A DNA stretch of 64,000 bases from Pontibacterium granulatum (GTDB taxonomy: Bacteria; Pseudomonadota; Gammaproteobacteria; Pseudomonadales; Balneatricaceae): contig NZ_JASBRH010000018.1 in the NCBI RefSeq assembly GCF_029961155.1, positions 1 to 64,000 of the forward strand. Reading direction: 5' to 3'. The translations under genes were made by a program, and so were the position numbers. Below the pieces are notes generated by a model. It saw nothing but the letters and a program-made list of their open reading frames with translations. It was not told the origin of the DNA and ran no database searches. Positions 23,687-61,028 of the stretch are shown in pieces. Each line of letters starts with the position of its first letter. Position 1 is the first letter of the stretch.

Positions 23687-24529
23687 ATGGAAATAGTCGG
23701 ACTGAAAACCTTTAAAGCGGTTGTTGATGAAGGTGGTATCAAAGGCGCTTCCGAAAAGCTGCATACGGTGCAATCTAATATCACTAGCCGTATCCAGAAG
23801 CTGGAAGAGGAGTTGGATGCGAAGCTGTTTGGTATCACCGGGCGCAAGCTGGAGCTCACCCCGACCGGGCAGCTGCTCTATCGCTATGCCCAGGAGATTC
23901 TGCAGCTTGAGCAGCAAGCCGCCTCGGCGATCCGCTTGAGTAAAGGCAGTTATGACCTGCGCGTGGGTACGCCAGAAACTTTTGCTGCGGTTCACCTGCC
24001 ACGGGCCCTGAAAGCGCTGAAGCAGGCCTATCCGCAGATCCGGCCCAAGATCCATACCGCCACCAGTGCTGAGTTGGTGATTGCGGTGCAAAACAATAAA
24101 GTGGATTGTGCGGTGGTGGGCAACGTGACGCCACACGAATCGATTCGCTCCGTGCCCATCGTGGATGAGTCGCTGGTGGTCGTGACGCCGCAGGATGGTG
24201 AATATGAACAGGTGCTCTGTGTGCGGGAAGAGGGCTGTGCCTACCGCAAATGCGCGGAAGCCTGGCAGCAGCAGGCGGGGCGCAGTGATGATCAAAAGCT
24301 GGTGATGAGCAGCGCCGATGGTGTGCTGGGCTGTATCGCGGGTGGCTTGGGCTATACGGTGATCAGTGAGAACATGGTGATCGGCAGTCGATATGAGAAA
24401 GACTTGCTGATGGAGAAGGTCTCGCACGGAGACGAGTATGTGCACGTCTCCATGATCTACCGTAAAGACAATCCTCTGGAAGAGGGGATACAGCAGCTGA
24501 TCGAGATGTTTCCAGCTAAGATCTCCTGA
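23687..24529 (+). CDS. LysR-family regulator, probable control of the EamA transporter
   Basis: A 280-residue LysR protein (MEIVGLKTFKAVVDEGGIKG; HTH with VQSNITSRIQKLEEELDAKLF). Its effector domain is shorter than usual and has three cysteines in a CVREEGCAYRKC stretch. It is divergent from the EamA gene. Its stop lies 9 bp from the stop of the converging P5C-reductase-like gene. Ligand unknown. Confidence 0.85.
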   Translation: MEIVGLKTFKAVVDEGGIKGASEKLHTVQSNITSRIQKLEEELDAKLFGITGRKLELTPTGQLLYRYAQEILQLEQQAASAIRLSKGSYDLRVGTPETFAAVHLPRALKALKQAYPQIRPKIHTATSAELVIAVQNNKVDCAVVGNVTPHESIRSVPIVDESLVVVTPQDGEYEQVLCVREEGCAYRKCAEAWQQQAGRSDDQKLVMSSADGVLGCIAGGLGYTVISENMVIGSRYEKDLLMEKVSHGDEYVHVSMIYRKDNPLEEGIQQLIEMFPAKIS

Positions 24530-24538
24530 CGACCGACT

Positions 24539-25312
24539 TTAGCCTTTAGCTTTCTGCGCAATCAATTCCATTGCAGACTGCCAGCTATCCAGGCCGCCAT
24601 TGGCTTTAATCGCTTCGATGCCTTGCAACGTGAATGTGCCCTCAGTGGCAATCGAACGACCGATTTCGCCGTAGCGCTGTTCGGGTTTGGCTTCAGCAAA
24701 ATCGACAGCGCTGCTGATGGAGTGTGCGACCATTTTGCGAGCGGTGGCTTCATCCATACCCTGTGCGCAGCTCCAGTCGATCAGTTGCTGGATCAGGAAG
24801 TAGCTCCAGCCGTGCAGGCAGGCGTGACTGAGGGCGACGTCAAACAGCTCTTCCGACTCGAGGGGGACTGCGGTGCCCAGTTGGACAAACAGCGCTTCTA
24901 CCACTGGGTTTGCAGGATAAAGTGGGATTGGGCCGGAACACACCTCGGCACTGGTGGAAGGCATAACGCGAACCAATTCGCACTGCCGCAGCTCTGGATG
25001 ACTTCGCAGTTGCTCGATAGTGACACCGGCGAGTGCGGAAATCACGGTCTGACTCGGTTTGAATGTCAGGCCATTTATCAGATCGGACAGTGCATCCGGG
25101 CGCACTGCTAGCAGGACAAGGTCACTCTGATCGATCACTGCTTGGTTATCGGTCGCGATCTCGCAGTTACAGATATCAGCAAGTTTTTTGGCGACCCTCG
25201 CACCGCGTGGCGAGAGGATAATGGTACGGGTGTCGCCGCTGTGGCGAAGTCCTTTTACGGTATAGCTGGCCAGGTGGCCAACGCCGAGAATTCCGAGAGT
25301 TGCTGGTTCCAT
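24539..25312 (-). CDS. Pyrroline-5-carboxylate reductase-like oxidoreductase
   Basis: A 257-residue ProC-family protein. The N-terminal dinucleotide-binding motif GILGVGHLASY is followed by a conserved VISALAGVTIEQL strand, RVMPSTSAEV and a C-terminal helical dimer domain with TARKMVAHS. Housekeeping ProC has MPNTPA where this has MPSTSA, so it may act on another cyclic imine. It sits at the edge of the catabolic island with RidA and a LysR gene on the same strand. A role in reducing pyrroline-type products of proline-betaine breakdown is possible but only inferred. Confidence 0.75.
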   Translation of the reverse strand: MEPATLGILGVGHLASYTVKGLRHSGDTRTIILSPRGARVAKKLADICNCEIATDNQAVIDQSDLVLLAVRPDALSDLINGLTFKPSQTVISALAGVTIEQLRSHPELRQCELVRVMPSTSAEVCSGPIPLYPANPVVEALFVQLGTAVPLESEELFDVALSHACLHGWSYFLIQQLIDWSCAQGMDEATARKMVAHSISSAVDFAEAKPEQRYGEIGRSIATEGTFTLQGIEAIKANGGLDSWQSAMELIAQKAKG

Positions 25313-25413: not shown

Positions 25414-26337
25414 TTACGTTACCGCTAAATCAATCTCACCGGCGGCTTCAGCCAGAAGCCAGTCACGAAAACATTCAGCCGCCGGGTTTAGTGGGCGTTG
25501 GTTGTTGTAGACCAGATAGTCTGCATGATTTGGGACCAGCGGTTTTTCGCAAGCCAGGCGAAGGGTGCCGTTGGCAAGCTGATCCTGCACGGCAAATTCC
25601 CAACCCAGAGCGATCCCCATATTGTTGCCTGCCGCCTGCAACACGAGAGGCAGGTTGTTAAACAACATAGAGCCGCTCGGAATCTCGTAATCGATCCCAA
25701 ATCCTTTGAACCAGTCAGACCAGCAGGTCCAGCGCCATTTAGACGGTCCCAAGTGAATCAACTCCTGGCCGAGTAGCTGCTCCGGTTCCTGACAGGTCTC
25801 GAACGGATAGGTTGGGCCGCAAACCGCGTAGATCTTCTCATCGAAGAGGTAATGGGAGTTCAGTGGAGCGTCCCAGTCACCATCGCCATACAAGATGCCC
25901 AGATCGTGCTGCAGGCACATCGTTTCATCGATCTGATCGCTGGAGTAGATGTTGATGTTGATGTCGGAAAACTGGGTCTTAAACAAAGCCACCCGAGGGA
26001 ACAACCAGTAGTGGGCAACGGCTACCGTCGCCACGATGGTCAGTTCATGGGTACGGTTGGTGTTCTGGATCCGGGAGCTGACCGCAGAGAGTTTCTCCAA
26101 GGCGGCTTGGGCTTCCAGATAGAGCTCTTTGCCGTCTTCGCTGATCTCCAAACCTTGCGGGCCACGGAGGAACAGCTCGGTGCTTAGAAATTCCTCCAGA
26201 TGCTTGATCTGTTTGCTGACCGCGCTCTGACTGACGCACAACTCTTCGGCGGCTTTGGTAAAGCTGTTGTGGCGTGCCGCGGCTTCGAAAAAGGCAAGGG
26301 CCTGGAGTGGGGGGAGGCGTCGGTAGAGTGGTTTCAT
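25414..26337 (-). CDS. GcvA-like LysR regulator
   Basis: A 307-residue LysR protein. The N-terminus is of the GcvA subgroup (RRLPPLQALAFFEAAARHNSFTKAAEELCVSQSAVSKQIKHL). The ATG at 26337 (MKPLYRRLPP) is used; upstream starts add 37 residues without LysR similarity. It lies just downstream of the island operon terminator and may regulate the island or the P5C-reductase-like gene. Ligand unknown. Confidence 0.85.
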   Translation of the reverse strand: MKPLYRRLPPLQALAFFEAAARHNSFTKAAEELCVSQSAVSKQIKHLEEFLSTELFLRGPQGLEISEDGKELYLEAQAALEKLSAVSSRIQNTNRTHELTIVATVAVAHYWLFPRVALFKTQFSDININIYSSDQIDETMCLQHDLGILYGDGDWDAPLNSHYLFDEKIYAVCGPTYPFETCQEPEQLLGQELIHLGPSKWRWTCWSDWFKGFGIDYEIPSGSMLFNNLPLVLQAAGNNMGIALGWEFAVQDQLANGTLRLACEKPLVPNHADYLVYNNQRPLNPAAECFRDWLLAEAAGEIDLAVT

Positions 26338-26398
26338 CGGTACAGCCAGTTCAATTCCGTTTTCCCAAGTATGGCGTGGGATACAGCGTTTGGAAATG

Positions 26399-26448
26399 AA
26401 AAAAGTGTCAGGCCCTGTAGCCAAAAGAAAAGCCACAAGGCCTGACAC
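26399..26448 (-). terminator. Operon terminator after ridA
   Basis: On the minus strand GTGTCAGGCC...GGCCTGACAC (perfect 10-bp arms, 24-nt loop) is followed by a TTTTTT run. It closes the island operon 35 bp after the ridA stop. Confidence 0.85.
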
Positions 26449-26482: not shown

Positions 26483-26830
26483 TTATACCGAAGCCGTAGC
26501 GACGATCTCGATCAGCATACCAGGCACAGCCAGGCGAGTTTCTAGCGTGGCACGGGTAGGTTTCGGATGGCCTTCAAACCACGCTTTCCAGACTTTATTC
26601 ATAGTATCGAAACCGCGGATGTCGTTCATGTATACGGTGGTGGTCAGCATCTTTTCCGGGCTGGAACCCACGGCAAGAAGCTGCTTCTTAACGTTTTCCA
26701 ATGCTTGCAACGTTTGTTCTTCCAGTGTTGAACTGTAGTCGTTGGCTACTTGGCCACTGGTGGTAACTACGCCGTTGTAGACGACGGCCTGGCTCATGTA
26801 ATCGTTGCTTTCGGAACGGATGATAGGCAT
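26483..26830 (-). CDS. RidA-family enamine/imine deaminase
   Basis: A 115-residue RidA/YjgF/YER057c protein. Conserved elements include VVTSGQVAND, the TTVYMND segment and PTRATLETRLAVPGMLIEI, with the substrate-binding Arg and the downstream Glu. RidA proteins hydrolyse reactive 2-aminoacrylate-type enamines/imines to keto acids and ammonia. The ATG at 26830 is used because AAAGGAAG lies 6-7 bases upstream. As the last gene of the island it probably clears imines made by the FAD amine oxidase at 31190 or the enolase-superfamily enzyme. Confidence 0.88.
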   Translation of the reverse strand: MPIIRSESNDYMSQAVVYNGVVTTSGQVANDYSSTLEEQTLQALENVKKQLLAVGSSPEKMLTTTVYMNDIRGFDTMNKVWKAWFEGHPKPTRATLETRLAVPGMLIEIVATASV

Positions 26831-26924
26831 GGAACTTCCTTTAGTGTTTTTGACCCGGGCCTTAATCAAGGCCCGGTGTGTTGGGTTACTTAAATGTCAA
26901 ATGTAAGCGGCTTATTTAAGTGAC

Positions 26925-28106
26925 TTAGTTAAGCGGCAGGCGGTTAAATTTTCCGGGTGCTGCCGGGTTGTAGAAATGGTCCAGTGGGCCGTTTTCAACA
27001 AAGTGGCGGTGCCAGTAGGCCAACGCTTCCCGATCCAGGGTGACACCGAGGCCCGGGCCTTCCGGCACCAGCACCACGTTGTTTTTTTGCTTGAACGGAC
27101 CGCCTTCGATCACGTCGCAGATCTGCCAGCGGAACAAGGACTGGCTCGGCTCATGAATCCAAGGCATGGCAGCGGTCATATGCAAGTACGCTGCGGTACA
27201 GATGCCCGCATCGCCGCTGTAACACCAGAAACCCACGCCCATCGCTTCACAAGCACCGATAAAGCGAATTGCGTGGCTGATACCGCCCAGAACTGCGAAG
27301 TTTGTCACGACGTTGTCGGGTGCACCCAGTGCTACGGCACGTCGGATATCAGGTACATGGGTAGAGAATGGAATGGTGCTGTGCTGACGCAGTTGGGCCA
27401 TTTCTTCGAAGGTTGCTACCGGATCTTCGTAGTTGCGGATGTTGTACTCTTCGATTGCACCCAGCACATAACGCGCTGTGGAAAGTGACCACTGCATGTT
27501 GGAATCCAGGCGGATCATGGCATCTTCACCCAGGGTTTCACGCAGCTTTTTCACTGTCGCAATCTCTTTTTGAGGATCGCCCAGGATCAGCTTGCCTTCA
27601 AAATAGGTGGAACCGTGTTCCTCCTTCATGCGCAGACAGTAATCGGCCACCGCCTCAGGGCTCATTTCGCCGCCTTTACCGTTTACTTCAGGACGGAACG
27701 CAAAGTACTCGGTAAATGGAATCTCTTTTCGGACAGCACCGCCCAGCAACTTGTACAGCGGCTGGTCCCAGTGTTTACCGCGAATATCCCAAAGCGCGAT
27801 CTCAATGGCGCCAAAGGCTTTTACCACCGAGGAATCATCGGTGTTTTGCACAATCTGCCACGGTGGAACGCATACCGCTTCGCAGGCTGCAATATCCAGT
27901 GGATCCAGACCGATCAGTCGTTGGCCCATTGCCTCGATAGCGTGCACTACATCGACGGATGGAGCTTCACCCAAGCCGATGATGCCCTCATCAGTTTCCA
28001 CCTCAATGATGGTTTTGGAGGTGCCAGGGTAGTAACCACCAGTCCACCAGAAGGGTGCTTCCAGTGGAATGTTAATTGGGGTTGCTTTGATTGCAGTAAT
28101 TTTCAT
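26925..28106 (-). CDS. Enolase-superfamily (mandelate racemase/MLE-like) enzyme, substrate unknown
   Basis: A 393-residue enolase-superfamily protein with a normal capping domain and (beta/alpha)7 barrel. Metal ligands are visible as RLDSNMQW (Asp), YEDPV (Glu) and a following STHVPD strand. The second-strand base motif reads YFEGKLILG. The His/Asp dyad of glucarate dehydratases is not evident: the expected His region reads WCYSGD. Some relatives (HpbD) epimerise proline betaine, but the second catalytic Lys of HpbD is not obvious either. It lies between the TRAP permease and ridA in the same operon, so it acts on the imported substrate or a product of it. Confidence 0.75.
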   Translation of the reverse strand: MKITAIKATPINIPLEAPFWWTGGYYPGTSKTIIEVETDEGIIGLGEAPSVDVVHAIEAMGQRLIGLDPLDIAACEAVCVPPWQIVQNTDDSSVVKAFGAIEIALWDIRGKHWDQPLYKLLGGAVRKEIPFTEYFAFRPEVNGKGGEMSPEAVADYCLRMKEEHGSTYFEGKLILGDPQKEIATVKKLRETLGEDAMIRLDSNMQWSLSTARYVLGAIEEYNIRNYEDPVATFEEMAQLRQHSTIPFSTHVPDIRRAVALGAPDNVVTNFAVLGGISHAIRFIGACEAMGVGFWCYSGDAGICTAAYLHMTAAMPWIHEPSQSLFRWQICDVIEGGPFKQKNNVVLVPEGPGLGVTLDREALAYWHRHFVENGPLDHFYNPAAPGKFNRLPLN

Positions 28107-28130: not shown

Positions 28131-29429
28131 TCAGATAAAGCCCAGCCAGCGTGGAATAAACAGGGATAGTTCCGGTACAAATGTGGTGATCATCATCACG
28201 GGCATTCCCACGACCGCGATAAACATCAGCGCAGGCATTACCGCGTTATGGATAGATACGCGGCCTATTCGGCAGGCCATATAGAGGATCGGGGCGACGG
28301 GTGGGCTGTTGGCACCGATCACCACCGAGCACGCGACGATGGAGGCGTAATGCACCGGATGCACGCCAGCATCTACCATCAGTGGCATAAACAGCGGGGC
28401 AATAATGACAGTGACCGAAACGTCATCCATAAGCGCGCCAACGATGATCAGGAAGATGTTGATGGTAATAAGCACGGCTAATGGATCGCTGACAATCGCA
28501 CCCACCGCTTCAGTCAGATCCTGCGGAATACGTTCGGTGGCCAGAATACGGCTGATCATGAACGAGAACAGCAGAATCAGAATGATCGAGCCGGTGGTTT
28601 CTGCCGCACCGATCAATCCGCTCACCAGACGGGAAGGCGTCAGATCGCGGTAGATGAAGAATCCGATCAATACTGCGGCAAATACCGCCACGGCGGCCGC
28701 TTCAGTAGGTGTGAATATGCCGCCATAGATACCGCCAAGAATGATCAGTGGTAGGCTCAGAGCCGGAAACGCTTTTATAGCGGCTTTGGGCTTGCTGATC
28801 TTGTTGTAGATATCGTCGTTAGCCTGGTTAATGACCTCCTTGAATAAACCACCTGCGCAGAAGCGATTGGTCAGGATCAAGCCAATAATCAGTAACAGTG
28901 CTGGCCCGATGGTGGCGGCAAAGCAGGCTGCGACTGACTGACGAGTCACGACCGCAAACAGAATCATGGTGATCGATGGCGGAATCAGGATGCCCAGCAG
29001 GGATGAGATCCCGAGCATTGCAGCGGAGTATCCGCGCGGATAACCCCGTTCTTCCAGCGGTTTGATCATGATGGTGCCGATGGAAGCAACCGCGGCGGTT
29101 GCAGTACCCGCGATGGCTCCAAAGATACCGGAGGCCAGTACCATCGACGCACCCATGCCTCCACGACGGCGACCTACCAGCACTTCAATGAATTCCACCA
29201 AGCGCTTGGCTATACCACCGCTCTGCATCAGGTAGCCGGTGATTACGAACAGCGGCAGGGCGATCAGGATGACCGAGTTAAGGGAGCGGAAGCCCTGTAG
29301 CATCAAAGTGTTCAGGTTGGCATCGTAGGCTATTGAGAGAAAAGCCAGCACTCCGGCAAAGGACCAGGCGACGGGCATTCCAACCGCCATTAGCACGATC
29401 AGAATAGCGACGGCAGTGAGAGCAATCAT
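28131..29429 (-). CDS. dctM: TRAP transporter large membrane subunit
   Basis: A 432-residue, roughly 12-helix DctM protein (SFAGVLAFLSIAYDANLNTL, GIFGAIAGTATAAVASIGTI, the conserved LLGILIPPSITMI segment). It forms the Na+-driven permease with DctQ. Its ATG overlaps the dctQ stop (ATGA), so they are translationally coupled. The partner dctP is at 30112. It belongs to the osmolyte-catabolism island. Confidence 0.9.
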   Translation of the reverse strand: MIALTAVAILIVLMAVGMPVAWSFAGVLAFLSIAYDANLNTLMLQGFRSLNSVILIALPLFVITGYLMQSGGIAKRLVEFIEVLVGRRRGGMGASMVLASGIFGAIAGTATAAVASIGTIMIKPLEERGYPRGYSAAMLGISSLLGILIPPSITMILFAVVTRQSVAACFAATIGPALLLIIGLILTNRFCAGGLFKEVINQANDDIYNKISKPKAAIKAFPALSLPLIILGGIYGGIFTPTEAAAVAVFAAVLIGFFIYRDLTPSRLVSGLIGAAETTGSIILILLFSFMISRILATERIPQDLTEAVGAIVSDPLAVLITINIFLIIVGALMDDVSVTVIIAPLFMPLMVDAGVHPVHYASIVACSVVIGANSPPVAPILYMACRIGRVSIHNAVMPALMFIAVVGMPVMMITTFVPELSLFIPRWLGFI

Positions 29430-29929
29430 GAATCTTTACCTGATTTGAGTTGAGATATACTGCGCAGGGTGTCGCGAACTGCGTAGGCAAAGCAGGTGAC
29501 GGACGCTAGCATGATTGAGGCTTGTGGCAGCCAGAGTGGGATTGATAGCCCCGGTGTGGTTTGTGGGCGTTTCATGCCCCAGGCCAGCATCTTCCAGGAC
29601 CAGACCATAAAGAATATGCAGATCACAGCTGTACCCAAGCCGATGAGCATCTGGTGGATTGCACGGGCACGGTCGGACTGGAGTTGCTGGTAAAGGAAGT
29701 CGACGACAAGGTGTTCGTTCTGATGACTGGCGATCATGGCGCCGGACATGTAAAGCCACATACCCGCAATAATCACGAGTTCCATCACACCAACGACCGA
29801 CCAGCCGAGAATGTAACGGGCCACAACCAGAAACAGCATCAATACAACCACGGCGATACTGCTGACAACCGCCAGTGCTTTGAGTGCACGGTTGCTGAAA
29901 TGGTCAAGATTAGAAAAGAAACGCAACAT
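29426..29929 (-). CDS. dctQ: TRAP transporter small membrane subunit
   Basis: A 167-residue, four-helix DctQ protein. The start at 29929 (MLRFFSNLDH) is chosen because GGA lies 10 bases upstream and because it matches the start of the paralogue at 63649 (MMVRFFTALDKK). It overlaps dctM by four bases. It bridges the binding protein and the large permease subunit. Confidence 0.88.
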   Translation of the reverse strand: MLRFFSNLDHFSNRALKALAVVSSIAVVVLMLFLVVARYILGWSVVGVMELVIIAGMWLYMSGAMIASHQNEHLVVDFLYQQLQSDRARAIHQMLIGLGTAVICIFFMVWSWKMLAWGMKRPQTTPGLSIPLWLPQASIMLASVTCFAYAVRDTLRSISQLKSGKDS

Positions 29930-30021
29930 AACTGAGCATTCCAATTGAGCCTATCGTCATAGACCTGGCCGGTAAGCGGGCAGGTTCTACAACGAGAGGG
30001 AAGTTAACTGCATAGAAAAAT

Positions 30022-30111: not shown

Positions 30112-31122
30112 TTAAAGAGGCTTGGCGTTTTTCTCGATGGTAGCCATGATCTTGGTGCCAAATTCATCAGCCATCAGAGGCCATACTTTTTCGCGAGCAG
30201 ATTTTGCCATCGCATTGAGTTGTTCTTCGGTCGGTTCGAAGTACTGTTTGCCCGCTGCCTTCCATTTGGAAACGTAGAGCTCATCGGTCGCTTTGGCGGC
30301 TTTGAACTGGTCATTCATGATCACAGTTGCTGCGTCTGAGATGATCTTCTGATGCTCTTCAGACAGGGATTCGTAGGAGTCGAGGTTCATGGTCAGGATC
30401 GCCGTCATGAACATATGCTTGGTACGTACGTAGTAGTCCAGGGCATCACGAAAGTACTCGTAATCCCAGAAGATTACGTTGCCCGCCTCGCCATCAACCA
30501 CACCGGTCTGCAGGGAGGTGTAGACTTCGCCCCAATCGATACCTGCAGTCTGGTAACCCAGTGCCTGTACAGTTTGAGGGAATGGGAATGCAGGCAGGGT
30601 GCGTACTTTCAGACCTTCTGAGTCTGCCATGTTGACAGAGTACTTGCCGCGGGTTGCAACACCGTTGAACCCTTCAGGCCAAGGACCGAAGAACTTTAGG
30701 CCTGCATCGGCGTAGATGCTACCCAGCATGTTGTTTACCCAACCGCCTGGGCTGTACGCTTTGACTGCTTCTTCCCAGGACAGAGTCATGTACGGTGCGT
30801 ACACTACACCCATACGCTTATCGTAGGAGGTCATTGGCCAGTTGAGCATGATGTCCAGATCACCCGCCATCAACAGGTCAAACATCTCCTGCTGGCCGCC
30901 CAGTTCGTTCTGGTAGAACACCTTTACGTCAATCTCGCCGTTAGAGTTCTTTTCGATCAGATCACCCCACTTGCGCAGTGCTTCACCGGCAGGGGAGTCT
31001 TTTGAGCCTGCTTCAGTCGCAAGTTTCAGGGTTTCAGCAGAAGCCAACTGGGATGCCAACAGGCTGGTGGCCAGTAGACCGGTTACCACCGGTTTCAGGA
31101 GTTTTTTTATAGTTAGTGCCAT
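30112..31122 (-). CDS. dctP: TRAP transporter substrate-binding protein of the catabolic island
   Basis: A 336-residue periplasmic protein with a signal peptide (VVTGLLATSLLASQLASA). The mature part starts ETLKLATEAGSKDSPAGEAL. Key text includes GGWVNNMLG, FNGVATRGKYS, a LKVRT segment with the ligand-binding Arg, and GVVDGEAGNVI. It is strikingly similar (by eye well over half identical) to the DctP at 62575, which implies related substrates. Its operon with a FAD amine oxidase and a BetI-like regulator suggests an amino-acid-like or betaine-like ligand. Confidence 0.9.
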   Translation of the reverse strand: MALTIKKLLKPVVTGLLATSLLASQLASAETLKLATEAGSKDSPAGEALRKWGDLIEKNSNGEIDVKVFYQNELGGQQEMFDLLMAGDLDIMLNWPMTSYDKRMGVVYAPYMTLSWEEAVKAYSPGGWVNNMLGSIYADAGLKFFGPWPEGFNGVATRGKYSVNMADSEGLKVRTLPAFPFPQTVQALGYQTAGIDWGEVYTSLQTGVVDGEAGNVIFWDYEYFRDALDYYVRTKHMFMTAILTMNLDSYESLSEEHQKIISDAATVIMNDQFKAAKATDELYVSKWKAAGKQYFEPTEEQLNAMAKSAREKVWPLMADEFGTKIMATIEKNAKPL

Positions 31123-31189: not shown

Positions 31190-32506
31190 TTACACCTCGC
31201 CTTTTGCCAATCGCTCTTCAAATGAGAGGCGGATACGTGCGCCAACACTGCGCAGTGGGTCGGGTGGAACCCAGCTTGGGTTGGAATTACTCAGGATGAA
31301 TTCCAGCTCGGCACTTTTAACGCCTGAGATGTATTCGGCCATGTAGTTACCCAGGTAGGTGCCTTTGGCGACGCCTACGCCGTTCATCGCAGCCACCACG
31401 TAAACACCTGGCGCATGTTGCTTGAATACGGATTCGTGGTTCATGGTCATGCAGAGCATTCCGCCCCAGCTGAACTCGAACGGTACGTCCTTCAGCTGCG
31501 GGAAGCGGGCCAGGTAGGAACGGCGGTGTTTTTCGCGCGCCTTGCCGATCAGTGCTTCTGTGCTGGACAGTTCCGGCAGGAAATCCAGGGTGTTGCGGAT
31601 AAACAGGCGGTTGTCCGACGTCAGACGCACGGTGGTGCCCGCAGGGTGCGCGGAGGTCAGGCCCCACGGCTCAACACCGTCGAACTGAGCCATTTCGCTG
31701 CTGGTGAGCGGACGAGTCATGCTGGCGTAGGTGAATACAGGCGCCAGTTTGTTACGGCAACCACCGAACTCTTCTGTAAACGCGTTGGTGGCCAGTACCA
31801 ATGTGTCTGCTGTAAGTTTCGCTTTATCGGTCTGGAGGGTTTTGCTCTCCAGATCGACGGAACGGATAGGCGTGTTTTCCAGCAGGGTGACATTTTTCGG
31901 TAGGGCGCTGGCAACGGTAATTGCCAGTGCAGCCGGGTTCATCAGAATATTGCCTGGGGTGTATACGGCACGTTTGTAGTACGGGGTGCCCAGCTTTTTA
32001 GCCAGGTCACTACCCTCTAAAACTGCGTACTTTTCGCCCATCGCATCCAGCGTGGTGGTGAACGCCGTCAGGTTGCTGAAGTGTTTCTCTTCATGGGCTG
32101 CAAGGTATTTGCCAGCTGCGTGCCAGCGTACATTCATGCCTTGTTGCTCCTGAATACGTTTCAGGCGCTCGATGGCGAAGCAGTTCAGATCACGGATCTT
32201 GGCATCGTGTTCCGGATTTGGCTCATCCGCATCCAGGTTGTGGGGCAGGTCAATGATAAAACCAGCGTTTCGGCCAGCAGTACCCTGTCCAATCTCAAGG
32301 GCGTCGACCAGTGCGATCTTTGCATCGGGTTGAAGTTCTGCGAGACGTCCGGCCGTCGCCAGACCGGAGAAACCACTGCCTGCCACGATGACGTCAAAGT
32401 GTTCGTCTTTTTCGGCGTTCTGAACCGGCATCGGACGTTGGAAAGGGACGGTTTCATACCAGCCTAACTGACCATCGATGGCAGGTATTCTTTTTATATT
32501 TCGCAT
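31190..32506 (-). CDS. DadA/OrdL-type FAD amine oxidoreductase
   Basis: A 438-residue flavoprotein of the DAO superfamily. The FAD-binding motif DVIVAGSGFSGLATAGRLAEL begins near residue 38. The FAD arm GQGTAGRNAGFI follows, and the C-terminal SWGGMLCMTMNHESVF/MNGVGVAKGTYLG carries the second FAD contact. Relatives oxidise D-amino acids, sarcosine or N-methylated amines to imines. The adjacent TRAP transporter would supply the substrate and RidA would remove the imine. About 180 bp of regulatory DNA precedes it, including a CATTCC-N5-GGAATG palindrome. Confidence 0.82.
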   Translation of the reverse strand: MRNIKRIPAIDGQLGWYETVPFQRPMPVQNAEKDEHFDVIVAGSGFSGLATAGRLAELQPDAKIALVDALEIGQGTAGRNAGFIIDLPHNLDADEPNPEHDAKIRDLNCFAIERLKRIQEQQGMNVRWHAAGKYLAAHEEKHFSNLTAFTTTLDAMGEKYAVLEGSDLAKKLGTPYYKRAVYTPGNILMNPAALAITVASALPKNVTLLENTPIRSVDLESKTLQTDKAKLTADTLVLATNAFTEEFGGCRNKLAPVFTYASMTRPLTSSEMAQFDGVEPWGLTSAHPAGTTVRLTSDNRLFIRNTLDFLPELSSTEALIGKAREKHRRSYLARFPQLKDVPFEFSWGGMLCMTMNHESVFKQHAPGVYVVAAMNGVGVAKGTYLGNYMAEYISGVKSAELEFILSNSNPSWVPPDPLRSVGARIRLSFEERLAKGEV

Positions 32507-32686: not shown

Positions 32687-33301
32687 TTAACGGGGCAACC
32701 AGATCTGGCCAGTAAAACTCTCAATATTACTGTTGATCATACCCATCGCTTCCTTAACGCTGATGGTGCCCAGGATACTCTGCTCTACCCAGAGGCCGTG
32801 GATCAGCGCACAGGTTTGAGTAGCGTACACACGGGCGAGGTCGCGACGATTACCTGCTGCAACGAAGTCATACATCAGGTTGCTGACCAGTCGGCGGGAG
32901 AAGATTGTACAGAGGCGTTTCACACGCACGTCGTATACCGAGTTACTCCACATCTGGGGCCATACGTTGGCGGCCCCTTTAGTGGTCAGCTCGGGAGTAA
33001 AGCAGAGTTCGGCGGTGTGCTTGAGGCGTTCGACCGGGTCTGGAGTTTCGGTACGCATCTCGGTCATCTGTTCGCGCGCAATGCGGATCAGGTGATCGTA
33101 GGTCTTGTATACCAGGTTGGCTTTGTTATAGAAGTGGTGGTGGACGATACCCACAGAGACGTCAGCGTGGTTGCTGACTTTTCGAATTGTGAGGTTTTCC
33201 AGGCCCAATTCGCCCACGATCTCCAGCGTAGATTCGAGTATTTTCAGCTGTAATCCATCGTAGCGATTTGGCATATTCGGGTCCGGCCTGTTTCCATTCA
33301 T
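32687..33301 (-). CDS. BetI-like TetR-family regulator
   Basis: A 204-residue TetR protein. The DNA-binding part (LKILESTLEIVGELGLENLTIRKVSNHADVSVGIVHHHFYNK) resembles BetI, the choline-responsive repressor. The start at 33301 is uncertain, as no good ribosome site is seen; 33274 is an alternative. It lies between the DddP-like gene and the FAD oxidase in the same orientation and probably controls the island. The effector may be a betaine or choline analogue. Confidence 0.8.
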   Translation of the reverse strand: MNGNRPDPNMPNRYDGLQLKILESTLEIVGELGLENLTIRKVSNHADVSVGIVHHHFYNKANLVYKTYDHLIRIAREQMTEMRTETPDPVERLKHTAELCFTPELTTKGAANVWPQMWSNSVYDVRVKRLCTIFSRRLVSNLMYDFVAAGNRRDLARVYATQTCALIHGLWVEQSILGTISVKEAMGMINSNIESFTGQIWLPR

Positions 33302-33414: not shown

Positions 33415-34668
33415 TTACAACCACTCGGTTTCCCAGCGGAAGGTAGACAGGGGAGCGCAGCCATCTTTGGTGATCAGGACCTGCTCCTCTACTTTCACGC
33501 CTTCTTTGCCGCCTTCTTCGCCTATGTAGCTTTCCACGCAGACGGTCATGTTCTCGTGGAAGACACCGTCATAACCGGCGCTGGCCCAGTCGTTGCCCTG
33601 GTGGGCGACTGCCGGGTATTCGTCGGCCATACCGATGCCGTGAATTACGCAACAGTAACGGTTTTTGTGGAAGTGTTCAGGAATCGGCCAGGCCTTCTCG
33701 GTGAATTCCTTGAAAGTCATGCCTGGTTTTATCATATCCATGTTGTAGTGCACCTGTTCATACGCAGTGGCGTATAGGCGGCGTTGCTCGTCGGTCGGGC
33801 GAGCGTGTCCGACGGTCCAGGTGCGGGAGATATCGGCGCAGTAACCGTACGGGCCGATCATGTCAGTGTCAAAGCCCAGCATTTCGCCTTCTTGCATCAC
33901 CTTGTTGCTGCTCTCCTGCATCCATGGGTTGGTGCGCTCACCGGAGGCCAGCAGGCGGGTTTCGATCCACTCACCGCCGTTGCGAATGTTTTCATAGTGC
34001 AGATACGCCCAGAGTTCATTTTCGGTCATGCCGGCACGCTGTTCCTGATACATCCGTTCCATGGCGTGTTCGCACACGTTGATGGTCCAGCGCATTAACT
34101 CCAACTCGTCGTCAGATTTCAGTGCGCGAGCCATCTCCATCACCGGCTGGCCCTGATGCAGAGAGAACCCTTTCTGTTGCAGACAGAACACGCCTTCCGG
34201 TTCCATCTTGTCGACGGCGAGACGTTTGTTACCGCCACCGTGCTGGTGCATAAGGTCTGCGATTTCGCAGGCCCACTGCTCGGCCTTTTCTGATACACGA
34301 GGGCCGGCACCAAAGTATGCCCAGTTCACTGCCAGGCGGATCTCGTCGATGGTATCCAGATGTGAGGCCAGGTGTTCGCAGTTGTGGAACTCCCAAAGCA
34401 GCACCGGACCGTTGGCAAAGATCATGGCGTAACGGGACGCGTTATGTGCGGTCCAGATCTGCATGTTGGACGAGTCGGTTGCATAACGGATGTTGACTGG
34501 ATCGTAGAGCAGAATCGCGGCGTAATCATTTTCGCGTAGTTGCTGACGCACACGTTCCAGACGGTAGTGCTGAGTGCGGTGCAGGGTCTCGTCGCTCACC
34601 GGGTTTACCAGTGGTGCGTCGCGGGAAACGTCGTTGAGATAGGTTTTTTTATCTGTCAGTACATTCAT
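33415..34668 (-). CDS. dddP: M24-family DddP-like protein, candidate DMSP lyase
   Basis: A 417-residue metallopeptidase-fold (M24/creatinase) protein. DddP cleaves dimethylsulfoniopropionate to acrylate and dimethyl sulfide. From memory of the Roseovarius/Ruegeria DddP numbering, the metal ligands Asp295, Asp297, Asp307, His371, Glu406 and Glu421 correspond here to Asp267, Asp269, Asp279, His343, Glu379 and Glu394. The proposed base Asp377 is Asp349, Tyr366 is Tyr338 and Trp95 is Trp72 (NMQIWTAHN). Texts such as NIRYATDSSNMQ and GGEWIETRLLASG are near-identical. The ATG at 34668 has CGGA about 10 bases before it. The N-terminus is ~25 residues shorter than DddP. A BCCT gene lies upstream. An uncharacterised creatinase-like activity remains the alternative. 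Confidence 0.72.
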   Translation of the reverse strand: MNVLTDKKTYLNDVSRDAPLVNPVSDETLHRTQHYRLERVRQQLRENDYAAILLYDPVNIRYATDSSNMQIWTAHNASRYAMIFANGPVLLWEFHNCEHLASHLDTIDEIRLAVNWAYFGAGPRVSEKAEQWACEIADLMHQHGGGNKRLAVDKMEPEGVFCLQQKGFSLHQGQPVMEMARALKSDDELELMRWTINVCEHAMERMYQEQRAGMTENELWAYLHYENIRNGGEWIETRLLASGERTNPWMQESSNKVMQEGEMLGFDTDMIGPYGYCADISRTWTVGHARPTDEQRRLYATAYEQVHYNMDMIKPGMTFKEFTEKAWPIPEHFHKNRYCCVIHGIGMADEYPAVAHQGNDWASAGYDGVFHENMTVCVESYIGEEGGKEGVKVEEQVLITKDGCAPLSTFRWETEWL

Positions 34669-34681
34669 TGTTTTCATTCCG

Positions 34682-34716
34682 AAAAAAGGGCCGGTGAGGG
34701 GCGCGCCCCACCGGCC
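34682..34716 (-). terminator. Terminator between the BCCT and dddP-like genes
   Basis: On the minus strand GGCCGGTG...CACCGGCC encloses a GC-rich GGGGCGCGCCCC core and is followed by CTTTTTTC. It fills the short BCCT-dddP gap, so the downstream gene is reached by read-through or has its own promoter. Confidence 0.8.
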
Positions 34717-34724
34717 AAAGGCAC

Positions 34725-36299
34725 TCAATAACCCTTGAGGGCATCCCTGATGGTGGAAACACACATTAGAACCATGATCAGCGAGAATGGCAGGGCGCCG
34801 ATGATCATCGCTTTCTGAATCGCGCCGAGGCCGCCGGCGAACATCAATGAGCCAACCACAATGGTCAGCAGAGCGCCCCAGATCACACGGTGGTTAGTGC
34901 CGGGGTTGCTGTCGCCACCAGCCATAATGGTGTTCAGAACCAATACGCCGGAGTCGGCAGAGGTGATGAGGTACGTGAGGATCAGGACTACCACCATCGC
35001 GGACATGATCTGTGCCAGTTCAGGGCTTAGCAGTTGTTGAAGGGTCACAAACATCTGGGATTCGATGGATACGCCGCTGATTGCGCCGTTGGCGTTACCG
35101 TTCAGTTCCAGATCCAGTGCAGTGCCGCCGAGCAGGGCGAACCATACAAAGCACATCAGGGTAGGGATGATCATTGCACCCAATACGAACTGACGCACAG
35201 TCCGACCTTTGGAGATGCGTGCCAGGAACAGCCCTACGAACGGTGCGAATGCGATCCACCATGCCCAATAGTAGATGGTCCAGCCACTCTGCCATTTACC
35301 GAGAGCACTTTCCTGATCCCATACGGTGAAGCTCAGGGCTGGCAGGTTTACCACGTAGTCGAGCAGGCCGTGGAAGTAGGTGTTTGTTGCAAAGGTGATG
35401 GAGCCAAATGCGATAAACACAAACAGTAGGATGAACGACAGGGTCAGGTTGATATTGCTAAGCCATTTCACGCCTTTGCCCACACCGGTCACGGCAGATA
35501 GGGTAGAGAGACCCATTACCGCACCAAGTGCGACCAGCATTGCAGTACCTGTAGGTGTGCCGTCACCGTCTAACAGCCATGTTGCACCCGTAAGGCTTTC
35601 TACACCGGAAACCAGCTGCAATACGCCGGTACCAACTGTGGTCGATACACCCAGTACAGTTGCCACAACTGCAACGATATCGACCACATTGCCTAGTGCA
35701 CCGTTCAGGCGGTCACCAAACAATGGTGCCAGCGTGGTGCGGATAGTCAGTGGCATGTTGTATTTGTAGGCGAAGTACGCCATTGCTAAGCCAACGGCGA
35801 CGTAGATTCCCCAGGCGTGCAGGCCCCAGTGCAGAAAGGAGAAGCGAATTGCTGACTCCACGGTGCTCGGTGAGTTAGCGGCAACCGTACCGGCGATCAC
35901 TTCCGGATTGCCCGCAAAGTGATACATCGGTTCACCGATGGAATAGAACATCAGGCCGATGCCCATACCTGCGCCAAACATCATGGCGAACCATGAAAAG
36001 TTGGAGAATTCCGGGCGATCGTTTTCGCTGCCGAGGCGTACTTTGCCGATCGGGCTGACAGCCATACCGATACAAAAGATCAGGAATAGACTGACGGAGA
36101 AAATGTAGTAGGAGTTAAAGGTTGCGAGCAGTACTGAGTTAATAGAACCGAGCAGTTCGGCAGCTTTGTCCGGAAAGACAATCGCCATAATAACCAGCGC
36201 TGCAATGACGACCTTACTGGTGATGGTAATAATTGGATTCAGGCCCTTATAGAACCCCGAATCGGAGGTGTTAACGTTGATCTGATAATCAGTATTCAT
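34725..36299 (-). CDS. BCCT-family transporter of the catabolic island
   Basis: A 524-residue, 12-helix BCCT protein, paralogous to the one at 11832. It has GMGIGLMFYSIGEPMYHF, FLHWGLHAWGIYVAVG, the Trp signature YYWAWWIAFAPFVGLFLARISKGRT and LITSADSGVLVLN. BCCT proteins import betaines, carnitine, choline or DMSP. Next to a DddP-like lyase it could be a DddT-like DMSP importer; next to a Stc2-like Rieske enzyme it could equally carry proline betaine. No long C-terminal osmosensor is present. Confidence 0.9.
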   Translation of the reverse strand: MNTDYQINVNTSDSGFYKGLNPIITITSKVVIAALVIMAIVFPDKAAELLGSINSVLLATFNSYYIFSVSLFLIFCIGMAVSPIGKVRLGSENDRPEFSNFSWFAMMFGAGMGIGLMFYSIGEPMYHFAGNPEVIAGTVAANSPSTVESAIRFSFLHWGLHAWGIYVAVGLAMAYFAYKYNMPLTIRTTLAPLFGDRLNGALGNVVDIVAVVATVLGVSTTVGTGVLQLVSGVESLTGATWLLDGDGTPTGTAMLVALGAVMGLSTLSAVTGVGKGVKWLSNINLTLSFILLFVFIAFGSITFATNTYFHGLLDYVVNLPALSFTVWDQESALGKWQSGWTIYYWAWWIAFAPFVGLFLARISKGRTVRQFVLGAMIIPTLMCFVWFALLGGTALDLELNGNANGAISGVSIESQMFVTLQQLLSPELAQIMSAMVVVLILTYLITSADSGVLVLNTIMAGGDSNPGTNHRVIWGALLTIVVGSLMFAGGLGAIQKAMIIGALPFSLIMVLMCVSTIRDALKGY

Positions 36300-36489: not shown

Positions 36490-37728
36490 TTACAGCTGTT
36501 GTTTAATCTGATCGACATACCAGTCGGTGAAGTGCTGCAGCAGGCTTTCGGAGTCTTCCGAGTAAGGGCCTGGGATGTAACCGTCCGTGAGACAGCCAGC
36601 GTGCGTGATTTCCGCCAGCATGCGGTCCTGATCGTTGGTTTGAATCCAGGTGTGAGTCAGGTTGCTGAGGTCGTAGTCTTCGCCCTCTACCGCGTCTTCG
36701 CGCACCATCCAACGTGTACGTACCAGGGTTTTATCTTCCGATAGAGGCAGTACGCTGGTGCTGAGTATGTGGTCGCAGGTGAAGTGCAGCCAGGCATTCG
36801 GGTGAGTCCACATGGAAAGACTGCTGTTATCCGGTTCGCTGAATGGAGGAAGTAATTTCTTAACCGCAGGTTGGCCATCCATTGTCTGGCTTACCGCGCC
36901 CTGGGTCAGCAGCATACGTGCGGCACGGTACCAACGGTTTTCGTCCATTTCGACGATCTCGTATGGCATGCCCATGTTCTGCCACTCTGGAATCTTGGCG
37001 TCGTAGAGTGCGTTCAGTTTTTCTTCGGCTGCCTGTTTTTCCTTGGGATCGTCAGGCCAGCCAAAACCAACGCCGTATGGTGGCCATACGCGCAGCAGTT
37101 CGGGATGGTTAGCGCCGCAGTGGTAACACTCACGGTTGTTCTCGACGACCAGTTTCCAGTTGGCGTTTTCGATCAGGTCCGCTTCATGGGCAACTTTCAA
37201 CTTGTCCAGCTGATAGAAGGCTGCAAACGGCTCCAGTTCAGAGCGCATCTGTTCCAGCGCTGCCATATCCGGGTTTTCGGACAGGTTCATAAACAGCAGA
37301 CCGCCAATCGATTCCAGTGCGACCGGTTTCAGGCCGCTGGCATCGCAGTTGAAACCTTCACCCATACGGGAGGAGTGGATCAGGCTACCATCCAGCTCGT
37401 ATACCCACTGGTGATACGGGCACACCAGCTTTGGTACATGGCCTTTGTCTTCTACGCAGACCTTGGCACCACGGTGGCGACAGGAGTTGTAGAAGGCGCG
37501 TACTTCATCATCCTGCCCGCGTACAATGATGATGGAGTTGTTGTCAATCTGGATGACACGGTAGTCACCCTTTCTCTTCACATCCGCCACTGTACCGACG
37601 TGAATCCAGTGTTTCTTAAAGACGTGTTGCATGTCGAAGTCGAATGCTTCACGTGAGGTATAGAGTTTCTGCGGCAGGCTGAAACCAGATTGGTAGCTTG
37701 CTACTGAGGATTTAACAACGTCGTTCAT
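36490..37728 (-). CDS. Stc2/GbcA-type Rieske oxygenase, candidate betaine demethylase
   Basis: A 412-residue alpha-subunit Rieske oxygenase. The [2Fe-2S] ligands are Cys83, His85, Cys103 and His106 (CRHRG, CPYHQW). The mononuclear iron site has His203 and His208 (NNRECYHCGANHPEL) plus an Asp in TNDQDRM. The N-terminus (SGFSLPQKLYTSREAFDFDMQHVF) resembles stachydrine demethylase Stc2 more than GbcA. It would N-demethylate a quaternary amine with release of formaldehyde. No reductase gene is adjacent, so it may borrow GbcB (46666). It is divergent from a GATase1-AraC regulator, across a region with four palindromes and a TGTCG box. Confidence 0.82.
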   Translation of the reverse strand: MNDVVKSSVASYQSGFSLPQKLYTSREAFDFDMQHVFKKHWIHVGTVADVKRKGDYRVIQIDNNSIIIVRGQDDEVRAFYNSCRHRGAKVCVEDKGHVPKLVCPYHQWVYELDGSLIHSSRMGEGFNCDASGLKPVALESIGGLLFMNLSENPDMAALEQMRSELEPFAAFYQLDKLKVAHEADLIENANWKLVVENNRECYHCGANHPELLRVWPPYGVGFGWPDDPKEKQAAEEKLNALYDAKIPEWQNMGMPYEIVEMDENRWYRAARMLLTQGAVSQTMDGQPAVKKLLPPFSEPDNSSLSMWTHPNAWLHFTCDHILSTSVLPLSEDKTLVRTRWMVREDAVEGEDYDLSNLTHTWIQTNDQDRMLAEITHAGCLTDGYIPGPYSEDSESLLQHFTDWYVDQIKQQL

Positions 37729-45093: not shown

Positions 45094-46365
45094 TTAACCC
45101 TTCAGGTTTTTCTGAACGGTTTCAGAGTACCACTCCATGAAGTTGACGATACCGAACTCGAAGGTCTCGGAGTATGGACCTGGCTCGTAGCCGATGGAGT
45201 TGATACCCAGCTGGTTCTCTTCACCCAGGATACGGTCCTGATCGTTGGTTGCATCCCAAACCTCACGCAGACGTGCTGGATCGTAATCAACACCTTCAAC
45301 CGCGTCTTTGTGTACGAACCACTTGGTGGTTACGATCGATTCCTGAGCGGAGATCGGCAGTACACGGAACACGATGAAGTGGTCAGACTGCATGTGGTTC
45401 CAGGAGTTCGGCAGGTGCAGGATACGCATGGAGCCCAGACTTGGGTTCTTGATGCGGCCGAGCATTTTCTTACAACCGGCTTCGCCGTCCAGGGTCATTA
45501 CCTTGGTGCCTTTTTTCAGTGGCATACGAACGATACGGTTACGCAGGCCCGGGCCGTAGCTGCGGTGTTCGTGAGGAATGCCTTCCGCATCCCATTCTGC
45601 AGCCTGTGCCGCGCAGTGCTCTTTGAACTCGTCAGACGCACGTGGATCGTTGGTGTCGTCCCATTCCAGCAGCGTGTTCAGCAGTTCCGGGTGGTTACCG
45701 GCACAGTGGTAGCACTCACGGTTGTTCTCGATAACGAGTTTCCAGTTGGCTTTCTCGTACATGTTGGATTCCACCGCCAGTTTGGTGTTCTCCACATCGT
45801 ACGGTTCCATGTACTCTTCCAGGGTCGCCAGGAACTCGTCGAAATCGCCTTCTGGCTCGTTTTTGCCCAGGCTGACGAAGATGAAACCGCCCGCGGTCTT
45901 GGTGTGTGCTTTCTTCAGACCGTGCTTCTTCATGTCGAAGGCATCGCCCATCTCGGTGCCTGCGAACAGCAGGTTGCCTTTCAGGTCGTAGGTCCACTGG
46001 TGGTATGGGCATACCAGATTCGCTACTTTGCCGCGGTGTTCAGTACAGATGCGGGAACCACGGTGGCGACAGGTGTTGTGGAACGCCTGAACGCCGCCGT
46101 CTGCGTCACGTACAACCAGGACCGGGTTCTGGCCGATCTCAACGGTGAAGTAGTCGCCTTTGTTTGGCACTTCACTGGTCATACCTACGAACAGCCACTC
46201 TTTCTGGAAGACTTCTTCCATGTCGATGCGGAACATCTGTGGATCGTTGTACAGCGGCGCTGGCAGAGAGTAGTTAGCCGGACGCTCTTCAAGCATCTTT
46301 GCCATCTCTTCGCGCGCATCTTCGATGGTCGCGTTACGGGTGTTGAGCAGATCGTTCTGGTTCAT
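45094..46365 (-). CDS. gbcA: Glycine betaine monooxygenase, Rieske oxygenase subunit
   Basis: A 423-residue Rieske non-heme iron oxygenase that demethylates glycine betaine to dimethylglycine and formaldehyde. [2Fe-2S] ligands are Cys99, His101, Cys119 and His122. The catalytic iron is held by His220, His225 (NNRECYHCAGNHPEL) and an Asp in TNDQDR (375/377). Length and motifs match GbcA of Pseudomonas. It is divergent from its reductase gene gbcB, with a 300-bp shared regulatory region containing a TGTCG box. Electrons come from GbcB. Confidence 0.92.
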   Translation of the reverse strand: MNQNDLLNTRNATIEDAREEMAKMLEERPANYSLPAPLYNDPQMFRIDMEEVFQKEWLFVGMTSEVPNKGDYFTVEIGQNPVLVVRDADGGVQAFHNTCRHRGSRICTEHRGKVANLVCPYHQWTYDLKGNLLFAGTEMGDAFDMKKHGLKKAHTKTAGGFIFVSLGKNEPEGDFDEFLATLEEYMEPYDVENTKLAVESNMYEKANWKLVIENNRECYHCAGNHPELLNTLLEWDDTNDPRASDEFKEHCAAQAAEWDAEGIPHEHRSYGPGLRNRIVRMPLKKGTKVMTLDGEAGCKKMLGRIKNPSLGSMRILHLPNSWNHMQSDHFIVFRVLPISAQESIVTTKWFVHKDAVEGVDYDPARLREVWDATNDQDRILGEENQLGINSIGYEPGPYSETFEFGIVNFMEWYSETVQKNLKG

Positions 46366-46665: not shown

Positions 46666-47793
46666 ATGACCAATTCAGTTCCAGTGGTTGTCAACAATGA
46701 CAGTTTTGCGCCAGTTAACACACAGACTTGGGTAAATGGTCGCCACAATGTTCGCTGTGTAAAAGTAATCGAAGAAACCTGGGATGTACGTACCTTCTGC
46801 TTTATGTCTGAGCAGCCGGTGATGTACTTCTTCAAGCCGGGCCAGTTTGTAACGCTGGAACTTGAGATCGAAGGTAAGCAGGTGATGCGTTCGTACACGA
46901 TCTCCAGCTCACCATCTGTGCCTTACAGCTTCTCGATTACTGTTAAGCGTGCACCGGGTGGTCTGGTATCTAACTGGCTGCACGACAACATGGTCGAAGG
47001 TAGCGAGTTGGCTGTACACGGACCAGTGGGCCAGTTCAACTGCATCGACTTCCCGGCAGAGAAAGTATTGTTGCTGTCTGGTGGTGTAGGTATTACCCCG
47101 GTAATGTCGATGGCGCGCTGGTGGTTCGACACCAATGGCGACGTAGATATGGTGTTTGTGCACAGTGCACGTACGCCGCGTGACATCGTTTACGCACGTG
47201 AGCTGGATCACATGGCGTCGCGAATCAACAACTTCAGCCTGAACCTGATCTGTGAGCGCATCGAAAACGGTCAGGCGTGGCACGGTTACCGTGGTTACCT
47301 GGATGCGGCGAAGTTGGAGATGATGGCACCAGACTTTATGGAGCGTGAGGTGTTCTGCTGTGGCCCAACGCCATATATGAACGCTGTGAAGAAGCTGCTG
47401 GAAAGCAAAGGCTTCGATATGTCCCGCTACCACGAAGAGTCCTTCGGTGAAGCACCAAGTGGCGTAGTTGAAGATGCACTGGAGCAGGCTGAAACTGCTC
47501 AGGCGGAAGCGGATGCAATTACCCAGGCTGATATGGTGCGTGTAGAATTCACCAATAACGGCAAGAGCGTTCAGGTGGCACCGGGCGAAACCCTGCATGC
47601 GGCGGCAGCTAAGCTGGATCTGAATATCCCGAAAGCCTGCGGTATGGGTATCTGCGGTACCTGTAAGGTGTTGGTGAAAGAGGGTGAAGCCACCATGGAA
47701 CACAACGGCGGTATCACTGATGACGATGTCGAAGCGGGTTACGTGCTGTCTTGCTGTAGTGTGCCGAAGACCGATGTCGTCGTAGAGTACTAA
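46666..47793 (+). CDS. gbcB: Glycine betaine monooxygenase, reductase subunit
   Basis: A 375-residue ferredoxin-reductase-type protein. The N-terminal FAD domain has the VMRSYTISSSPS motif and the NAD domain has LLSGGVGITPVMSM and CCGPTPYMNAV. A linker follows, then a C-terminal plant-type [2Fe-2S] domain (KACGMGICGTCKVLV ... LSCC). It passes NADH electrons to GbcA. It might also serve the second Rieske oxygenase (36490), which lacks a reductase neighbour. It is followed 41 bp downstream by a cNMP-CBS protein gene. Confidence 0.92.
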   Translation: MTNSVPVVVNNDSFAPVNTQTWVNGRHNVRCVKVIEETWDVRTFCFMSEQPVMYFFKPGQFVTLELEIEGKQVMRSYTISSSPSVPYSFSITVKRAPGGLVSNWLHDNMVEGSELAVHGPVGQFNCIDFPAEKVLLLSGGVGITPVMSMARWWFDTNGDVDMVFVHSARTPRDIVYARELDHMASRINNFSLNLICERIENGQAWHGYRGYLDAAKLEMMAPDFMEREVFCCGPTPYMNAVKKLLESKGFDMSRYHEESFGEAPSGVVEDALEQAETAQAEADAITQADMVRVEFTNNGKSVQVAPGETLHAAAAKLDLNIPKACGMGICGTCKVLVKEGEATMEHNGGITDDDVEAGYVLSCCSVPKTDVVVEY

Positions 47794-60824: not shown

Positions 60825-61028
60825 TAATATAAGTTCTGACGCGATGAACTGTATGAGCCTAAGTACCTTAGACGTACCAAGCAGATCTTATGCGCCAGGC
60901 CTGATGGTGGTGGGGGCTATTCGTTCCCGGGCTGTCCCATATTAGTCCTACATAATAAAAAAAGCGTAGCGGGCGTTAAGCAATCATTTCACGCCTTGCC
61001 CAGCACATACGCACAGAGGGCATACCCA

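Follow-up and report, generated by a model that had tools for sequence, protein, structure and literature searches.

The window analysed here is a 64,000-nucleotide stretch of Pontibacterium granulatum DNA, which at 33415..34668 on the minus strand encodes an M24-fold DddP-like enzyme of 417 amino acids with no internal stop. The gene is part of a minus-strand run with the order Rieske-BCCT-M24-TetR-DAO-TRAP-MR_MLE-Rid-LysR-ProC. Upstream lie the alpha subunit of a GbcA/Stc2-like Rieske oxygenase (36490..37728), scoring 427.1 bits on the GbcA model against a cut-off of 670, and a BCCT onium transporter (34725..36299), with 542.6 bits to Pfam BCCT and 476.5 bits to the glycine-betaine equivalog, below its cut-off of 650. 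Downstream follow a BetI-like TetR regulator (32687..33301; 115.4 bits versus a cut-off of 118) and an FAD-dependent DAO-family oxidoreductase (31190..32506; Pfam DAO, 142.4 bits), for which there was no solved relative at E 1e-10. Next come the TRAP genes, encoding DctP (30112..31122), a small permease (29426..29944) recognized by a weak match of 27.3 bits to YiaM together with its position, and the large permease DctM (28131..29429). The run continues with an enolase-superfamily (MR_MLE) protein (26925..28106), assigned like DctP and DctM by domain or family matches, and a Rid-family protein (26483..26869; 58 bits on TIGR00004, whose cut-off of 106.25 is not reached). At its end lie a LysR regulator (25414..26448), with a 49–51% homologue near the M24 gene in L050, L051, L052 and L143, and a ProC-like reductase (24539..25312), with a 73% homologue beside the M24 gene of Oceanospirillum sediminis (L053). 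The sequence-only reading had placed a BCCT transporter upstream of the M24 gene, with a Rieske protein, an FAD oxidase and a TRAP system on the same strand, and the domain and family matches, all on the minus strand, bear this out. A 258-amino-acid ORF downstream of the ProC-like gene (23669-24445) has no NCBIfam match and is overlapped by an opposite-strand ORF of 280 amino acids.

The best PDB matches of the Rieske protein are 3vca (E 2.7e-105), which we take to be Stc2, and 4qup (E 3.3e-105), titled a 'demethylase'. Its designation as a stachydrine demethylase is suggestive only, as the GbcA model and 3vca/4qup both match. Elsewhere in the window, GbcA, the glycine betaine monooxygenase (45094..46365, minus strand; 709.1 bits, cut-off 670), the GbcB reductase (46666..47793, plus strand; 708.4 bits, cut-off 500) and the GbdR regulator (60996..62150, plus strand; 620.4 bits, cut-off 480) all exceed their cut-offs, confirming that the gene resides in a betaine-catabolism island. 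An OYE-family gene, ETF alpha and beta and a BCCT gene are found at 4.4–13.4 kb, and ectoine genes at 52.5–55.2 kb.

A terminator-like hairpin of 11 pairs, 9 of them G-C, followed by CTTTTTT (34689..34716, minus strand), lies between the BCCT stop codon and the M24 ATG, 20 bases ahead of the latter. Its calculated stability is −23 kcal/mol (z −1.5), a value equalled by 16 of 200 shuffled sequences, and the 4.7 kb examined contained 9 terminator-like sites, against 4.4 expected. Because the hairpin lies between them, BCCT and M24 need not be one transcript; it is a possible attenuator or mark of separate transcription.

To characterize the M24 protein, we compared it with solved structures and curated family models. 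In a phmmer search of PDB sequences, the DddP structures 4rzy, 4s01, 4s00 and 4b28 were the top matches (E 2e-101 to 2.2e-99), and the next match followed at E 2.9e-19. The predicted structure has a pLDDT of 81.6, with residues 70–77, including W72, below 50. The same family provides its top four solved structures, with Z values of 41.5–41.7 and an rmsd of 2.1–2.2 over 394 residues, so that the overall fold is that of DddP. The pita-bread fold is also common to prolidase, DoeA and creatinase, which gave lower Z values (32.5, 30.5 and 30.2, respectively) and 15–19% identity for the best of each. On the DddP equivalog model NF043017 the protein scored 422.6 bits, short of the curated cut-off of 600, and none of the NCBIfam models listed for it reached its cut-off. 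Scores on the M24 hydrolase models were 66.3 bits for PepQ (cut-off 630) and 43.3 and 30.6 bits for DoeA (cut-offs 575 and 613), which rules out membership of the prolidase or ectoine hydrolase families. PDB matches, fold and catalytic residues thus agree that DddP is the nearest characterized family.

The computed alignment with RlDddP (4rzy; 40% identity) equates D295, D297 and D307 with D267, D269 and D279 of the M24 protein, H371 with H343, E406 with E379 and E421 with E394, and all six metal ligands are therefore present, as the sequence-only reading had supposed from the known DddP numbering. The catalytic residues it named are equally in place, with D377 corresponding to D349, Y366 to Y338 and W95 to W72. 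The constant offset of 27–28 residues it proposed is only partly correct: it amounts to 28 as far as D377 and drops to 27 at the two final Glu ligands, but at the Trp it is 23. According to their PDB titles, 4s01 and 4s00 are the D377N and Y366A mutants of DddP. The Roseobacter-type enzymes RlDddP and RdDddP (4b28) thus have the fold, all metal ligands and W95/Y366/D377 in common with the window protein, whose N-terminus is shorter (first Asp at 267, versus 295 in RlDddP) and whose H-to-E spacing is 36 instead of 35. Relative to the Roseobacter-type enzymes, the window protein has Thr for Trp at position 313, Tyr for Trp at 379, Ala for Cys at 376 and Tyr for Ala/Leu at 408.

For the phylogenetic analysis, a first tree was built from 83 proteins, after 12 short or broken sequences of 130 hits were omitted, and a second from 75 rows, after removal of eleven long-branch or outgroup rows and addition of three. 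In the first tree, the window gene is one of 31 proteins that group together (94/99), and the Roseobacter-type and gammaproteobacterial DddP belong to a separate side of 34 (92/77); in the second, the window side (32 rows) has support of 98/89 and the DddP side (33 rows) of 99/98. An AU test rejected a constraint joining the window gene with 23 DddP rows alone (p 1.3e-5). Trees and AU test therefore place the gene outside the clade of DddP sequences that exceed the NF043017 cut-off, which was surpassed by a protein in 17 of the 398 genomes of a phylum scan. The nine catalytic positions are invariant across the 31 window-side and 34 DddP-side rows, and for this reason the catalytic residues are not diagnostic for DddP. 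In the whole 83-row set D377 is kept in 71 rows and replaced by Gly in 9, and W95 is kept in 68. Clades with other gene contexts have these residues too, and their conservation was therefore rejected as proof of DMSP lyase function. The alignment and tree that the sequence-only reading had asked for gave a divided answer: DddP is indeed the nearest characterized family, but the protein lies in a sister clade in which no characterized member could be placed, an outcome that this reading had itself named as refuting. With a score of 422.6 bits, a supported sister clade and the AU result, orthology to DddP does not hold; the M24 protein is a member of a separate sister clade.

In both trees DddP has as its nearest group a set of nine f81 M24 proteins and not the window clade. 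These share the catalytic residues and a betaine context with the window protein, being encoded beside MttB, DMGDH-like and bmt genes, and branch as the sister group of DddP rather than of the window clade. The Rieske and reductase neighbours in the f81 genomes G198 and G342 are 74–94% identical to those of Rhizobium beringeri, and we therefore take f81 for Rhizobiaceae. The gammaproteobacterial DddP (Oceanisphaera plasmid NZ_CP136857 and its kin) is 48–51% identical to the window protein and likewise has Tyr at 379 and 408; it differs in forming a separate clade, in its long N-terminus and in its score of 626–635 bits versus 422.6. The window genome also encodes a second DddP-superfamily M24 (C75:8931-10091, L041), 39–40% identical to the first, in which Phe replaces Trp95. 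In Marinobacter sp. X15-166B (L052) and Halomonas sp. KAO (L070), the M24 coding sequence is divided between two ORFs, which is a broken gene or an assembly error.

The gene context was surveyed at 68 loci in eight groups, scoring homologues of eight reference genes within 9 kb at an identity of at least 35%. Proteins were grouped by tree where they were in one, and otherwise by score and neighbours; eight of the 10 gammaproteobacterial DddP loci score 626–635 bits, and two (L032, L033) were assigned by tree only. As the groups were drawn from search returns and assigned partly by context, the counts cannot be read as unbiased frequencies, and a locus near the end of a contig shows less of its surroundings. 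Duplicate stretches (L022, L023, L025, L026, L028, L127, L198, L202) and short contigs (L147, L048, L049, L058) were omitted from the counts, L147 being one that holds a CntA-like Rieske cluster. Also omitted, as lying outside the eight groups, were L030, L031, L034, L040-L047, L122, L124, L128, L188, L192, L195, L196, L199 and L205; among these, L122 has MttB and sarcosine oxidase genes, and L030 and L031 have no demethylating gene.

A betaine-demethylating gene was found within 9 kb at 5/6 loci of the window group, 11/17 of the Oceanospirillaceae/Pseudomonas/Halomonas group, 3/3 in Burkholderiales, 4/6 of the rhizobial/Terrarubrum group, 4/4 of f81 and 5/10 of gammaproteobacterial DddP. The context of Roseobacter-type DddP differs: such a gene occurs at one of 16 loci (Loktanella, L126), and the other 15 have none of the Rieske, DAO or BCCT betaine-demethylation genes within 9 kb. 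A clade without the Asp base has a demethylating gene at none of six loci and a BCCT gene at all six. Two Halomonas loci, L054 and L070, were put in the Oceanospirillaceae/Pseudomonas/Halomonas group by their cluster, although in both trees the L054 protein (L112) is closer to the window gene; moving both loci to the window group changes the counts to 7/8 and 9/15. Four GbcA-model matches in the 4.66 Mb of the window genome imply that a GbcA-type neighbour would occur within 9 kb by chance at about 2% of loci, a figure that is arithmetic on one model, the true chance being somewhat higher for the eight-gene set. Genes of the DMSP pathway (DddD, DddB, DddC or AcuI) were present within 9 kb at 1/17 loci of the Oceanospirillaceae/Pseudomonas/Halomonas group and 2/10 of gammaproteobacterial DddP. 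None was found within this distance at the six window-group loci (L050 offering only 1.8 kb on one side), nor in Burkholderiales (0/3), the rhizobial/Terrarubrum group (0/6), Roseobacter-type DddP (0/16), f81 (0/4) or the clade without the Asp base (0/6).

Homologues of the window Rieske, BCCT and DAO genes (54–76%) surround the M24 gene in Oceanisphaera, Zobellella, Marinobacter X15-166B and G536, and were not found, nor was LysR, around the orthologue in G045 (L021). The set is constant and the order varies, from Rieske-BCCT-M24 in the window to Rieske-M24-BCCT in L050, L051, L052 and L143. In Rhizobium beringeri, the M24 gene has a Rieske and reductase pair on one side and, on the other, genes for 4-hydroxyproline epimerase and a betaine ABC transporter. 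The 11 of 17 Oceanospirillaceae/Pseudomonas/Halomonas loci combine M24 with a CntA-like Rieske (carnitine monooxygenase is its closest solved relative, at 124 bits), a betaine-aldehyde-dehydrogenase-like ALDH, a rubredoxin-reductase fusion and, in most cases, a DAO. BCCT alone accompanies M24 at two further loci of this group (L029, L061), and four (L027, L056, L059, L063) have no reference gene within 9 kb; L190 and L191 have none of the demethylating reference genes in that range. Overall, the window clade often accompanies betaine-demethylation genes, namely Rieske oxygenases with DAO and BCCT.

The CntA-like cluster also accommodates the other M24 type. In Oceanisphaera-type genomes it contains an M24 that exceeds the DddP cut-off (L145, L146, L148, L203, L204), and in part of its loci the gammaproteobacterial DddP thus fills the Rieske-ALDH-BCCT slot of the window-type protein. 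The exchange of two M24 types in one cluster suggests related chemistry, because each fills the same slot. It is the best argument for possible DMSP cleavage by the window protein, and it argues equally for a possible betaine role of the gammaproteobacterial DddP. At L032/L202 (G034:C39), a gammaproteobacterial DddP-type M24 directly adjoins a DddD-like gene, and G536, which shares its genus with G487, the source of the Oceanisphaera record L050, has three DddP-family genes together with DddD. In the window organism, DddD and AcuI are located elsewhere in the genome; the full-length DddD-like protein (C44:232979-235486, L150) has 76% identity to its counterpart on a plasmid of Pseudomonas sp. 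MPC6, from an Antarctic base. This plasmid (NZ_CP034782.1), typed as conjugative, carries in parts of 155000-228000 (L073, L127, L128) a dddD-dddT-dddB-dddC-like set, a Rieske-ALDH-M24-BCCT cluster and a second M24 gene near a betaine ABC transporter; the region is a mobile osmolyte-catabolism island. Its window-clade M24 adjoins a dddD-like CoA transferase, a BCCT, an Fe-alcohol dehydrogenase and a CoA-acylating dehydrogenase of the dddDTBC kind. Given the dddDTBC-like set in MPC6 and DddD in the window genome, DMSP use is likely in both organisms.

A further clue comes from a DddP of a scallop symbiont, which is reported to be active when expressed in E. coli, has the ligands D263, D265, D275, H339, 'E385' and E390, and is 55% identical to Oceanimonas doudoroffii DddP2, itself called distinct from most DddPs (PMC10989825). 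The H-to-last-E spacing of 51 that these published positions give occurs in 23 of our 83 rows, 21 of them within the 25-row window core group and two, L100 and L085, outside it; L100, which is outside the window clade, is about 52–56% identical to members of both M24 types. The first Asp lies at about 257–278 in the window group by likely starts, mostly at 263–268, and at about 291–296 in most Roseobacter DddP, so that the 263 given for the symbiont fits the window group better, with the reservation that start sites vary. The position printed as 'E385' is matched by none of the 83 rows. On these indirect, positional likenesses, the active symbiont lyase may belong to the window clade.

In DddP, the metals hold the carboxylate, aromatic residues hold the sulfonium and Asp377 takes the alpha proton. 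Because the residues are the same, the window protein should likewise accommodate an onium carboxylate and generate an alpha-carbanion from it. Its two metal ions would hold the substrate carboxylate, the Trp/Tyr pocket would hold the positively charged onium group, and Asp349 would take the proton to give the alpha-carbanion, leading presumably to beta-elimination or another route through this intermediate. The substrate would be of the class of quaternary-ammonium betaines or their breakdown intermediates, with the neighbouring BCCT importing the betaine and the neighbouring Rieske and DAO carrying out demethylation. DMSP, being alike in shape, could well be a further substrate, and its cleavage is plausible, but it is probably not the main reason why the gene is kept here. 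We thus favour, with a probability of roughly 0.48, a DddP-mechanism onium-carboxylate enzyme that acts mainly in quaternary-ammonium catabolism, with DMSP as a possible secondary substrate. A quaternary-ammonium substrate is rated above DMSP because genes for import and demethylation adjoin M24. Against this reading count the loci with a BCCT alone or with none of the demethylating genes, the dddDTBC-like set beside the M24 gene of MPC6, DddD in the window genome, and the clue from the active symbiont lyase. The neighbours (Rieske, DAO and BCCT) could also serve a pathway that is merely co-regulated with M24.

The alternative closest to the sequence-only reading takes the protein for a true DMSP lyase, a second and divergent DddP type with DMSP as its main substrate. 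All catalytic residues are kept, DddD occurs in both MPC6 and the window genome, and the window-type M24 and the gammaproteobacterial DddP look interchangeable in the CntA-like cluster (11/17 versus 5/10 loci); the ligand spacing and first Asp reported for the active symbiont enzyme would also suit the window core group, although the spacing of 51 recurs in L100 and L085, both outside that core. Against this stand the score below the equivalog cut-off, the position outside the DddP clade, the scarcity of DMSP genes within 9 kb (0/6 loci in its own group and 1/17 in the next), a DddD already in the genome, and the occurrence of the clade in Caballeronia and Trinickia, bacteria of soil habit. 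On balance we find it doubtful that DMSP is the main substrate.

The M24 fold is equally that of prolidase, creatinase and DoeA, and a hydrolase of this type could act ahead of demethylation, cleaving an amide or conjugate to release a betaine or N-methyl amino acid. The family accompanies GbcA/Stc2-like Rieske proteins, CntA-like Rieske proteins and MttB with betaine-homocysteine methyltransferase, and such varied demethylating partners would be expected of an enzyme whose step, before or after demethylation, is shared by these systems. The hydrolases, however, lie 9 Z units below DddP, 71/83 rows retain the Asp that serves as base in DddP, and none of the 65 window-side and DddP-side rows lacks Trp95, Tyr366 or Asp377, making a hydrolase improbable. 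An epimerase of proline-betaine or hydroxyproline-betaine breakdown, which would remove and restore the alpha proton of a chiral betaine, would have the same first chemical step as DddP. It would account for the 4-hydroxyproline epimerase and Rieske genes adjoining M24 in L123 and L194 and for the ProC-like genes near it in the window and L053, but glycine betaine has no chiral centre and the window cluster already includes an enolase-superfamily protein, the superfamily of HpbD, a known kind of betaine epimerase; we regard this as very improbable.

Members of the window clade appear to have been named dddP in print already, by homology: L061 is a record of M. profundum PAMC 27536, whose genome gave three matches to the window protein, the one among the matches listed being this window-clade M24 gene at 7e-197, and L058, titled 'Neptuniibacter sp. 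isolate bin.36', is probably the MAG of the published account. A literature search, made partly on titles and abstract openings, returned no paper linking an M24 enzyme to Rieske or betaine clusters. Identity cut-offs of 40–50% have been used in surveys (PMC6309047, PMC9327192). If the sister clade, at 40% identity to RlDddP and 48–51% to gammaproteobacterial DddP, mainly serves betaines, such cut-offs can miscount enzymes. If, on the other hand, the window clade does cleave DMSP, the likely DMS producers extend to genera such as Caballeronia and Trinickia. More tentatively, DddP may have arisen within a wider, so far unrecognized M24 onium-carboxylate family that originally served a step of betaine catabolism, in which case the window gene would represent the betaine branch and some dddP genes counted in ocean surveys would be betaine enzymes. 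A betaine role of the sister clade, if true, would hint at the origin of DddP and at an as yet unassigned step of betaine catabolism.
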